Below the pieces are notes generated by a model that worked only from the letters and a program-made list of their open reading frames with translations, was not told the DNA's origin and ran no database searches. The position numbers and the translations under genes were made by a program. A stretch of DNA of 45,068 bases, taken from positions 1-45,068 of the forward strand of contig CALGYB010000107.1 in assembly GCA_937935075.1 (NCBI GenBank), written 5' to 3'. This document shows positions 9,266 through 13,239 of this stretch, one piece after another (positions within the stretch are counted from its first letter, which is position 1; each line of letters begins with the position of its first letter). The DNA is from an uncultured Roseiflexus sp. Lineage in GTDB: Bacteria; Chloroflexota; Chloroflexia; Chloroflexales; Roseiflexaceae.

Positions 9266-10342
9266 CTATTCATCCTCAAACACCCAATTCTGCTGGCGCG
9301 CAATCTCGCGCAACGCGCGCGCCAGCGCGTCGATCTGCTTGAGCAACAAGCCGATTTTCATCGGCGCATTCTGGTCCTGACGCACCCATTTGATGAGGTC
9401 GCCTTCGGCGTGCGCCCGAAACAGCCGATCCGTCTCGTCGATCATCTGGTCGAGCGAGCGGATGCGGAAGACGCGCGCTTTGTTCTTCGGCTGATTCTCG
9501 ATCGTCTCGTCGGTGCTATCGGGGAACGCGGCATCGTCATCGGTGTGGTCATCATCCCACAAACCGACGTCGCTCTCATCGTCGGACAGATCGCCGAGTG
9601 CGGCGCCTTTGAGGAGTGGACCGGCGGGCGGGACGGGGATGCTGCTCGCGCCGTGCGGCATGGTCGCCGCCAGATCGACGCCCTGTTGCAGCGCATGGAG
9701 CGCATCGTCGAGCGAGAGACCGGGATTGGCGGCAAAGAAACTGGCCAGGCGGCTGATCTCGGCAGCCGACATACCCTCTTCGACGGCGGCGCGCGCCAGT
9801 TCGATCTGCGTGCGCTCGTTGGGGACGCGCCGCAGATGCTGCGCCTGCGTGACGTTCAGTTCGCCTTTGCGCAGATACTCCTGAATTTCGAGCGGCAGGT
9901 CGAGCAACCCCAGGTAGCGCCGCACGGTGCGCGGCGACAGCCCGACGAGGCGTGCAGTCATTTCATCGAGCGCGCCGTCGTTGTCAATGCCGCGCTCGAT
10001 CGCAAGCTGCTCACGCAATTTCTGGAAGGCGCGCGCCTGTTCGAGGTCGTTCAGGTCGCGCCGTTGCAGATTTTCAGTCAACTGGCGCAGCAACACGCGC
10101 GGGTCGTCCGGGTCGAGCAGCACGCACGGCACCCGTTCCAGCCCCAGTTTCAACGCCGCCAGCCGTCGGCGGTTGCCGTACACCACGCGATAGCGACTGC
10201 GCCCGATGTCGATGACGCCGAGCGGCTGGAGCAACCCATACTCCGCGATAGTCGCTGCAAGCCCATCGATCTCGCCGGGGTCCTCGCGGACGCCCTGCGG
10301 ATCCGGTTCGAGCGCCCGCGGATCGATCCAGAGAAGCTGCAT
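9266..10342 (-). CDS. ParB/Spo0J-like DNA-binding protein, orphan
   Basis: A 358-aa protein. The N-terminal ParB nuclease-like domain has VVYGNRRRLAALKLG, a variant of the CTP-binding GERRxRA box, and LTENLQRRDLNDLEQARAF, matching the usual ENxQRxxLxPxEEA. A helix-turn-helix follows (MTARLVGLSPRTVRRYLGLL). The C-terminal third (about 230-358) is Asp/Glu-rich and then helical, unlike the short dimerisation tail of chromosomal ParB. No parA is adjacent. ATG at 10342 has GGAGG just upstream; a longer open frame above it is ignored. Possible roles: plasmid-type partition relic, Noc-like nucleoid protein, or regulator. Confidence 0.82.
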   Translation of the reverse strand: MQLLWIDPRALEPDPQGVREDPGEIDGLAATIAEYGLLQPLGVIDIGRSRYRVVYGNRRRLAALKLGLERVPCVLLDPDDPRVLLRQLTENLQRRDLNDLEQARAFQKLREQLAIERGIDNDGALDEMTARLVGLSPRTVRRYLGLLDLPLEIQEYLRKGELNVTQAQHLRRVPNERTQIELARAAVEEGMSAAEISRLASFFAANPGLSLDDALHALQQGVDLAATMPHGASSIPVPPAGPLLKGAALGDLSDDESDVGLWDDDHTDDDAAFPDSTDETIENQPKNKARVFRIRSLDQMIDETDRLFRAHAEGDLIKWVRQDQNAPMKIGLLLKQIDALARALREIARQQNWVFEDE

Positions 10343-10559: not shown

Positions 10560-10568
10560 TGCTATAAT
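10560..10568 (+). promoter_or_regulatory. Extended -10 promoter of the FHA-bchD pair
   Basis: TGCTATAAT is an exact extended -10 element, about 100 nt above the FHA gene. No good -35 is visible. It lies back to back with the ParB promoter in the 330-bp divergent spacer; the remaining spacer shows nothing else. Confidence 0.55.
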
Positions 10569-10672
10569 CGCAACTGCGCGCCTTTGCACAACGTCATGTT
10601 CTGTGACCCGAGCATATGCTCATGCTCGTCTCACGAAGGATCAACGTTTGTGCAGCGACATGGAGGCCCCCC

Positions 10673-11419
10673 ATGACCACACGACCGGCGTTGGCGCAGG
10701 AGATCGCCGATGCGCAACGAACGATCAGCGCGCTGACCGAAGAAATCACTGCTACCCGCAGTTATATCAGCGCCAATGAACAGGCGCTCCAGAGCCAGCC
10801 GCCGTCGCTGCGCGCCATCACCGAAGAAGGGCTGGCAAAGGCGCGCGCAAACCTGGCGCGCAAAGAGGCGGAATTGCAGATTGCCCAGCAGACCCTGGCA
10901 AATGCCCAGCGCACCCTGGCGAAGGTCGAGGAGATTGAGCGCAAACAGGGGGAAATCCGCAAACTCGAACAGGACCTGGCGACGATCAATGCGCTCCTTG
11001 AGCGCGCGCGCGGCGAACTCTCCCGCCTCGAAGGCGAATTGCTCGCCATGACCGCTCCGGTCGCGGTTCCTGCGTTTGCCCTGGCGCTGAGTGATGGGCG
11101 ATCCATTCCGCTGCCGACCGACCGCGCTGAGTTGCTGATCGGGTGCCAGGACGCGGCGGACAGTATCTTTCCCGACGTTGACCTCGCGCCTTTCGATGGG
11201 CGCACGAGCGGCGTCAGTCGGCGCCATGCGACTCTGCGCTATGCCGGCGGTCAGTGGACGATCACCGATCTCGGCAGCGCCAATGGGACGTTTGTGAATG
11301 ATAAGGCGCTGACGCCGCATACGCCGACGGTTCTGCCCGAAGGTTCGGTTGTTCGCCTTGGCGCTTTCGTCGTCACCTTTCGCTCGCTGGCGCCGAATAA
11401 AACGGTACGGCTCTCATGA
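10673..11419 (+). CDS. Coiled-coil protein with C-terminal FHA domain
   Basis: A 248-aa cytoplasmic protein. Residues 1-120 are a long heptad-rich coiled coil (many E/Q/A/L, no Pro). Residues about 145-248 form a forkhead-associated domain, with the phosphothreonine-binding signature SRRHATL, then ITDLGSANGTFVN and a final beta strand. ATG at 10673 follows GGAGG (10662-10666). Its stop overlaps the bchD start (ATGA), which implies translational coupling and probably a joint function. FHA domains read phospho-threonine, so a Ser/Thr-kinase signal could reach the chelatase subunit (inference). Confidence 0.88.
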   Translation: MTTRPALAQEIADAQRTISALTEEITATRSYISANEQALQSQPPSLRAITEEGLAKARANLARKEAELQIAQQTLANAQRTLAKVEEIERKQGEIRKLEQDLATINALLERARGELSRLEGELLAMTAPVAVPAFALALSDGRSIPLPTDRAELLIGCQDAADSIFPDVDLAPFDGRTSGVSRRHATLRYAGGQWTITDLGSANGTFVNDKALTPHTPTVLPEGSVVRLGAFVVTFRSLAPNKTVRLS

Positions 11420-13239
11420 CTGCGCTTTCACTCGCTGCACTTGTTGGTCTGGAATTGGCGCAGCAGGCGCTGCTCCTGCTGGCGGTCGAGCCGCGCCTGC
11501 GCGGCATCGCCGTCGGCGCGCCGGCGGGCGCGGGAAAGAGCAGCCTGGCGCGCGGCATGCGCGATCTGCTCTGCACTGGCGAGCGGTCGGTTCCGTTCGT
11601 GGAACTGCCGCTCGGCGTGGACGAAGCCGGATTGCTTGGCGGACTCGACATTGAGGCGACGCTGCGCGCCGGAAGGCGGGTGGCGCGCGCGGGGGCGCTG
11701 GCGCGCGCCGATGGCGGCATTCTCTATGCCGATCAGGTCAATCTGCTGCCCGACGCAATTATCAATCCGCTGATCGCCGCCATCGATACAGGCGAGGTGC
11801 GGCTCGAACGCGAGGGTCTCAGCATTCAGGCGCCGGCGCGCTTCGTTTTCATCGGCTCCTACGACCCCGCCGAAGGTCTGCCGCGCCGTCATCTGCTCGA
11901 CCGGTTAGGGTTGTTGCTGGTGTTGCCGCGCGCGATGAATGAACAGGCGCGCGCCGAGGTGGTGCGGCGCAACCTGGACCCGGCAGCGACGCAGGCGTAT
12001 GCCGACGACCTCGATCTGCTGCGCGGGCTGGTGCAGGCGGCGCGTGAACAGTTGCCGCAGGTGCGGATCGAGGACGAGCAGATCGAACAGTTGGTGGCGA
12101 TGGCGGCGCTCTGCGGCGTTGAGGGGCACCGCGCCGACGCTTTTGCGGTGTATGCCGCCTGTGCTGCGGCAGCCCTCGGCTTGCGCGACCATGTTGAACA
12201 GGAAGACCTGGAACTGGCGGTGCGGCTGGTCATTCTGCCACGCGCGACACGTCTGCCGCCTCCGCCGGAACCGCCGCCGGACGAAGAACCGCCGCCTCCG
12301 CCGCCCCCCTCCGACGCCGAGAGCGATACCGCTGACGCGCCGCCTGAGCCGCCGTCGGAAGATGAGTTGACCATTCCGCCTGAACAGGTGCTCAGCGCGC
12401 TGGCTGCCGAACTGCCGGTCGAACTGGAGCAGTTGCCATTCCGGGCGCTACGCCGTGGGAAGACCGGGTCGCGCGGCACGGTGGCGGGGAAGCGGGGACG
12501 GCACATTCGCAGCATTCCCGGTGATCCGCGACGTGGACGGATCGACGTATCCGCCACGCTACGCGCGGCTGCGCCATTCCAGCCGTTGCGCCGCGCTCAG
12601 GCGGACGCAAACGTTGCGTCCGCCAGGGTGCTGTTGCGCGGCGACGATCTACGCATCAAGCAGTACCGCAGCAAGGCGGGGGCGCTGTTCCTCTTTGCGG
12701 TCGACGCCAGCGGCAGCATGGCGCTGCACCGCATGCGTCAGGCGAAAGGGGCGGTGCATGCGCTTCTTCAGCGAGCGTATGTCCACCGCGACCGTGTGGC
12801 GCTGCTGGCGTTTCGTGGACAAAACGCCGAATTGCTGCTGCCGCCGTCGCAGAGTGTCGAACTCGCGCGCCGCGCCCTCGATCTGCTGCCGACCGGCGGC
12901 GGCACGCCGCTGGCAGCGGCGCTCCTGGCAGCCATCGAGGTGGCGCAGCAGGCGCGCGCGCGCGGCATTATGCAGACGGTGCTGGTGCTACTCACCGATG
13001 GGCGGGCGAATGTCGGGCTGCGCGTCGGGCGCGAAGGGGTTGCCGACGAACTGCAAACCATCGGGCGCGCAGTGGCGGCGGCGGGCATTCAGACGATTGT
13101 GGTCGATACGCAGCGCACCTACCTGAGTCGCGGCGAAGCGCGCAAACTGGCGGAGTGGCTGGATGGCGAGTATGTTTACCTCCCCAATGCCCAGGGTGAA
13201 CAGATCGCCGCGCTGGCGGTTGATCGGGTGGAGCGGTAA
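11416..13239 (+). CDS. bchD: Magnesium chelatase subunit D (BchD)
   Basis: A 607-aa AAA+/VWA protein. The AAA+ part (1-270) has Walker A GAPAGAGKSS (34-43) and GGILYADQVNLL at the Walker B place. An acidic proline-rich linker lies at about 281-315. The VWA domain has the MIDAS sequence DASGSM (about 429-434) and LTDGRANVG. With BchI and BchH it inserts Mg into protoporphyrin IX, the first committed step of bacteriochlorophyll synthesis. The order AAA+, acidic linker, VWA is diagnostic for BchD, and RGRIDVSATLRAAAPFQPLR is typical. The Walker A is better preserved than in many BchD proteins. A 25-bp perfect palindrome interrupts the coding sequence at 12600-12624. Magnesium or cobalt chelatase-like CobT/ChlD relatives are the alternative. 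Confidence 0.85.
   Translation: MTALSLAALVGLELAQQALLLLAVEPRLRGIAVGAPAGAGKSSLARGMRDLLCTGERSVPFVELPLGVDEAGLLGGLDIEATLRAGRRVARAGALARADGGILYADQVNLLPDAIINPLIAAIDTGEVRLEREGLSIQAPARFVFIGSYDPAEGLPRRHLLDRLGLLLVLPRAMNEQARAEVVRRNLDPAATQAYADDLDLLRGLVQAAREQLPQVRIEDEQIEQLVAMAALCGVEGHRADAFAVYAACAAAALGLRDHVEQEDLELAVRLVILPRATRLPPPPEPPPDEEPPPPPPPSDAESDTADAPPEPPSEDELTIPPEQVLSALAAELPVELEQLPFRALRRGKTGSRGTVAGKRGRHIRSIPGDPRRGRIDVSATLRAAAPFQPLRRAQADANVASARVLLRGDDLRIKQYRSKAGALFLFAVDASGSMALHRMRQAKGAVHALLQRAYVHRDRVALLAFRGQNAELLLPPSQSVELARRALDLLPTGGGTPLAAALLAAIEVAQQARARGIMQTVLVLLTDGRANVGLRVGREGVADELQTIGRAVAAAGIQTIVVDTQRTYLSRGEARKLAEWLDGEYVYLPNAQGEQIAALAVDRVER
12600..12624. repeat. Perfect palindrome inside bchD
   Basis: GGCGGACGCAA (12600-12610), loop ACG, TTGCGTCCGCC (12614-12624). 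It encodes a short Ala/Asp/Asn stretch between linker and VWA domain, in frame. Confidence 0.85.

Follow-up and report, generated by a model that had tools for sequence, protein, structure and literature searches.

A gene for an FHA protein lies directly before bchD in the 45,068-nt stretch of DNA analysed here (the window), which is contig C107 of a 4.85-Mb genome, G000. The gateway to bacteriochlorophyll is magnesium chelatase, and the locus raises the question of whether the FHA protein acts on the chelatase or whether its gene was merely caught in the same operon. If the protein touches BchD, how these phototrophs control pigment synthesis would become directly testable; if there is no contact, the locus is a clean example of operon formation by capture, and a warning against inferring function from tight gene coupling alone. 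No FHA partner of magnesium chelatase was found in the literature searched, and the accessible part of PMC7159879 mentions an FHA domain and magnesium chelatase, but apart.

Gene identities, junction and promoter

The features of the locus are given below in window coordinates, all on the + strand.

10560 to 10568, +: extended -10 element TGCTATAAT, sole TGnTATAAT in the window and candidate promoter for FHA and bchD as one unit
10662 to 10666, +: GGAGG ribosome-binding site of the FHA gene (duplex with the 16S tail, -9.3 kcal/mol)
10673 to 11419, +: FHA protein gene, 248 aa, start supported by orthologues
10679 to 11050, +: helical hairpin (aa 3-39 and 44-126) in the AlphaFold2 model
11144 to 11146, +: Cys158 (IGC for IGR), where canonical FHA domains have Arg
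11186 to 11362, +: FHA domain (PF00498 match, aa 172-230, E 4e-17)
11402 to 11413, +: C-terminal T-x-R-L tail, aa 244-247, with T, R and L invariant in 22/22 family members
11416 to 11419, +: ATGA stop/start overlap of the FHA gene and bchD, 4 nt, read in the sequence
11416 to 13239, +: bchD, magnesium chelatase subunit D, 607 aa (TIGR02031)
12691 to 13002, +: VWA domain of BchD (PF13519, aa 426-529), with a MIDAS-type DASGS (DxSxS) read in the sequence

The PF00498 match of the FHA protein (62.8 bits) was above the gathering cut-off of 20.7. The VWA protein scored 671.8 bits with the curated BchD equivalog TIGR02031 (cut-off 499.55), and its score with the cobaltochelatase model was under that model's cut-off (465.2 versus 779.45 bits). 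The curated model rules out a non-BchD paralogue, so the identification as BchD made in the initial annotation held. Its architecture comprised Pfam AAA_5, AAA_lid_2 and VWA_2, together with a proline/acid-rich linker read in the translation. BchI of G000 (G000:C197, 555.5 bits) and three BchH-type genes were over their cut-offs, all on contigs other than that of the window. Elsewhere in this genome (G000:C54:5601-7600), a ChlI-like ATPase gene was found beside a second gene, whose match to BchD covers the latter's C-terminal (VWA) half; both scored under the BchI and BchD cut-offs, and the two are probably a cobaltochelatase-type pair.

The FHA gene and bchD were linked in seven genomes, namely G000, G166 (a 5.80-Mb single-contig genome of the same genus), G323, G335, G395, G400 and G330. 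The 4-bp overlap first noticed in the window was confirmed as the shared ATGA, and in the six other linked genomes the FHA stop and the bchD start overlapped by 1 nt, as TAATG in five and TGATG in one. A chance overlap is ruled out by its retention in 7/7 linked loci. The duplex energy with the 16S tail was -3.1 kcal/mol for the ribosome site before bchD of the window; across the linked loci it ranged from -9.3 to -12.2 kcal/mol for the FHA gene (n=6; G400 was left out because the start of its FHA gene is missing from the contig that bears bchD) versus -3.1 to -6.2 kcal/mol for bchD (n=7). Given the overlap and the much weaker ribosome site of bchD, its translation probably depends on ribosomes that terminate on the FHA gene and reinitiate.

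TGnTATAAT occurred once in the 45-kb window against an expected mean of 0.20, and 19 of 100 shuffles contained at least one copy, which makes the motif weak evidence when taken alone. However, a 15-mer, TGCTATAATCGCAAC, was present upstream of the FHA gene in 7/7 linked loci (the upstream part of G400 being taken from a second contig) amid flanking DNA that diverged, which supports a real promoter element. Its distance to the FHA start was 79-116 nt in the genus and 245 nt in G330, and an insertion was located just upstream in two genomes. The window's genome held one exact copy of the 15-mer, and allowing up to 2 mismatches yielded 5 hits versus 4 for the reversed control, so nothing suggested a wider regulon. 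The initial annotation had assigned the FHA gene a dedicated extended -10 promoter. The element is present, but it is not dedicated to the FHA gene, in that no + strand promoter candidate other than TGCTATAAT was found for FHA and bchD together, and the consensus scan detected no internal bchD promoter on that strand. The proposed coupling of the two genes in expression was well backed by the sequence of the linked loci (7/7), which strongly implies that FHA and bchD share expression.

The sole sigma-70-like hit of the consensus scan was on the - strand (10550-10522). It shares its strand with a gene that we read as ParB-like (9266-10342, -) and that, within the genus, is oriented divergently to the FHA gene. 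It is about 10-40 nt from the FHA promoter, giving a back-to-back promoter region.

The same motif was sought at loci without the pair. TGnTATAAT was absent from 8/8 of the upstream stretches scanned among the 15 stand-alone FHA genes. In genomes of the g2 group, whose bchD regions have no FHA gene, it was found upstream of bchD in 3/3 looked at, with a 93-aa ORF between motif and bchD in G409. Homology of the g2 bchD promoters to the FHA-bchD promoters was not shown past a core of 10-13 nt.

Distribution of the pair and history of the gene order

Of 34 bchD regions from 34 genomes, a few with flanks cut short at contig ends, 7 had a gene of the FHA family adjoining bchD. Six belonged to the window's genus and one to the sister genus g4, and the pair was found in no other lineage among the regions examined. 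Conservation across phototrophic Chloroflexota, which had been put forward as a check on a functional link, was therefore not observed.

The FHA protein is one of a family from Chloroflexales whose members consist of a helical hairpin, an FHA domain and a TxRL tail. Full-length members, defined by a score of 320 bits or more (the next best hit had 136), occurred in 22 of the 158 genomes of the class. Among 40 relatives, 17 carried a full-length FHA gene and 26 a BchD match (E<=1e-60; five of these, in G380, G402, G410, G414 and G415, in part or in pieces). Both were present in 12 genomes, FHA only in 5, BchD only in 14 and neither in 9 (Fisher p = 0.74), so that the FHA gene occurred in 12/26 relatives with BchD versus 5/14 without. 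The FHA family shows no tie to BchD, and its presence in genomes lacking BchD indicates that its basic role is not pigment synthesis.

None of the gene maps of the 15 other family members contained bchD (15/15). For G425 and G433 the result comes from short-contig maps, which show none near the FHA gene, and the FHA genes of G024 and G353 were located by genome search instead of the gene caller. A common neighbour was considered as a clue to function, but nothing was shared across lineages in the 15 maps. As for recurrent neighbours, G012 and G061 both have a 196-aa gene immediately before the FHA gene, G061 and G246 have three nearby clusters in common, G295 and G433 share one, and ABC ATPases occur in G417, G419 and G295.

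Of the 5 g5 genomes examined, 4 encode a different FHA protein, of 211-212 aa, two genes after bchD (L125 2270-2908; L226 9730-10365; L227 10418-11053; L229 1530-2165), with a gene of about 410 aa in between. The copy of this protein in G012 has the usual IGR. This second FHA-bchD neighbourhood is possibly due to chance.

The gene order around bchD was compared among relatives. In relatives that have BchD but not the pair, bchI is the gene before bchD; 3 nt separate the two in G403 and G401, and they overlap by 4 nt in G415. In these bchI-bchD operons of other Chloroflexales, as in the present pair, bchD is tightly preceded by another gene, but the upstream partner in the window's genus and the sister genus is the FHA gene instead of bchI. 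The FHA gene of G403, from another genus of the family, is directly convergent to nth, with bchD following bchI elsewhere; nth adjoins a stand-alone FHA gene in this one of the 15 maps. In G330 the order is FHA-bchD-bchH, and these genes face a 140-aa gene and nth in convergent orientation (the neighbour names nth and trpB are our own reading of the sequences). The same 140-aa gene and nth are convergent to bchH in G166, G335, G323 and G395, where FHA-bchD is found at another place; contig C104 of G000 carries bchH, the 140-aa gene and nth. Genomes of g2 have bchD-bchH without the FHA gene. The simplest reading of these gene orders is that bchD-bchH landed between FHA and nth, and that FHA-bchD later moved together. 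The neighbours of the pair changed on both sides, with bchH lost at the 3' side and another gene upstream, and the pair stayed together.

Fold and phosphate pocket of the FHA protein

The AlphaFold2 model consisted of a helical hairpin and an FHA domain (mean pLDDT 89.4, pTM 0.50). Foldseek matched it to FHA domains at E 1e-8 to 1e-6, including the pThr-binding 3poa, which indicates a sound FHA fold, and the nearest solved FHA domains included CEP170, FhaA and GarA. The protein thus shares with canonical phosphothreonine readers (Rad53 FHA1, FhaA, GarA) the fold and the Ser, His and Asn-Gly core, but differs in that Gly-Arg is replaced by Gly-Cys, Gly-Trp or Gly-Leu in all 22 family members. 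The missing arginine, a phosphothreonine contact, is Cys in 11 members, Trp in 10 and Leu in 1. As a control, 20 of the 21 FHA hits in G000 were read (all but L109, which is truncated at a contig end), and the arginine was kept in 19/20, the lone exception being the bchD-linked FHA itself. Ser182, Arg183, His185, Asn204, Gly205 and Asn209 were invariant in 22/22 members, and the Ser contact (SxxH) is therefore kept.

In ArnA the phosphate is contacted by Arg-132, Ser-146 and Thr-167 according to the accessible part of PMC6509490. The Arg-Ser spacing of 14 equals that of an ordinary FHA domain of this genome, L089, and with a Ser-Thr spacing of 21 the Thr contact falls on Ala203 in the bchD-linked FHA. 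This position, before Asn-Gly, was Ala in all 6 members of the genus and in G330; some FHA domains of G000 that keep the Arg have Ala at this position too, so the substitution is weak evidence alone. Taken with the missing arginine, it leaves Ser182 as the only one of the three ArnA/Rad53 contacts in the bchD-linked copies. The cleft of the DgcB FHA domain uses Arg, Thr and Asn (PMC6733907, accessible part). The initial annotation had suggested that phosphothreonine reading links kinase signalling to bacteriochlorophyll synthesis. With the arginine missing in 22/22 family members and kept in 19/20 FHA domains of the genome, this idea is disfavoured.

The T-x-R-L tail was disordered in the model (pLDDT <50 at 243-247) and could be a phosphorylation site or a docking tail. 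A family that lacks the arginine and keeps the TxRL tail invariant merits being assigned its own function. Within the linked genomes both proteins were under purifying selection, with dN/dS of 0.10-0.17 for FHA and 0.07-0.08 for BchD (Nei-Gojobori).

Explanations of the pair

Judged from sequence, FHA and bchD form an operon specific to this lineage, in which the FHA protein is non-canonical, and a phosphothreonine link is not supported. We lean towards operon capture confined to this lineage, in which the FHA protein would do its family's own job, probably a scaffold-like one, instead of reading phosphothreonine on the chelatase. An existing, phototrophy-independent FHA gene would have become the direct upstream neighbour of bchD in an ancestor shared by the window's genus and one sister genus, with bchD leaving its old partner bchI, and both genes would since have been read from a single transcript under one extended -10 promoter. 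This promoter would be of the type found before bchD elsewhere (g2) and not before stand-alone FHA genes. The sequence basis of this reading is the overlapping junction, the weak bchD ribosome site, the conserved promoter element, the restricted distribution and the lost FHA arginine. Against capture, the pair remained intact amid changed neighbours, as expected of a functional unit; however, dependence of bchD on the upstream gene would equally keep the pair together, and the strong purifying selection on the FHA gene does not separate the readings. The different FHA gene two genes after bchD in 4/5 g5 genomes also argues against it, as does the sharing of only the 10-13 nt core between the g2 and FHA-bchD promoters, from which homology is not provable.

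A doubtful but serious possibility is that the FHA protein binds BchD independently of phosphate, for example at the VWA domain, and tunes chelatase assembly, by analogy with OdhI/GarA, which when unphosphorylated use the FHA domain to bind their enzyme. The tight coupling in 7/7 linked loci and the retention of the pair through a rearrangement would fit such a partner, and there is precedent in the OdhI FHA domain bound to OdhA (PMC10415282, accessible part) and in ArnA-ArnB of Sulfolobus acidocaldarius, an FHA protein with a vWA protein, of which ArnA regulates motility (PMC6509490, accessible part). Ser182, His185, Asn204 and Asn209 are invariant in 22/22 members, but equally so in those without BchD, and therefore give no argument for BchD; nor is the family associated with BchD (12/26 versus 5/14). 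As in Actinobacteria with OdhI/GarA, a small FHA protein matching in sequence and fold is tied to a metabolic enzyme. However, the NCBIfam OdhI model gave 36.1 bits, below its cut-off of 200, and the present protein carries a helical hairpin at its N-terminus and the TxRL tail at its C-terminus and is tied to its enzyme through genes alone. ArnA-ArnB likewise has neighbouring genes for FHA and VWA-domain proteins, the latter with DxSxS, but ArnA keeps the Arg, Ser and Thr contacts where the present family has lost the Arg, and the VWA partner here, seen by gene adjacency alone, is a metabolic chelatase subunit. That the FHA protein reads phosphothreonine on BchD, BchI or BchH and connects Ser/Thr kinase signalling to pigment synthesis is improbable: the sound FHA fold, the kept Ser182 and the 21 FHA hits in the genome, suggestive of phospho-signalling in general, are set against the Arg contact missing in 22/22, Ala203 in the bchD-linked copies and a family not linked to BchD. 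Highly improbable is a dedicated BchD partner whose phosphate pocket has turned into a redox/assembly switch, such that an oxygen signal at Cys158 would alter the FHA-BchD contact and magnesium insertion; this draws on the lost Arg being Cys in the bchD-linked genomes and some relatives, and the sole cysteine of the protein in 10/11 Cys-bearing members. The FHA frame as a mere leader setting bchD translation, its protein dispensable, would agree with the weak bchD ribosome site in 7/7 loci, but is scarcely credible given an FHA dN/dS of 0.10-0.17, which indicates selection on the protein itself.

The FHA census of G000 also revealed a cluster at G000:C101:7290-26511, where seven FHA domains (L096, L100, L101 and L104-L107) lie in frames of 417-1265 aa on one strand over about 19 kb.
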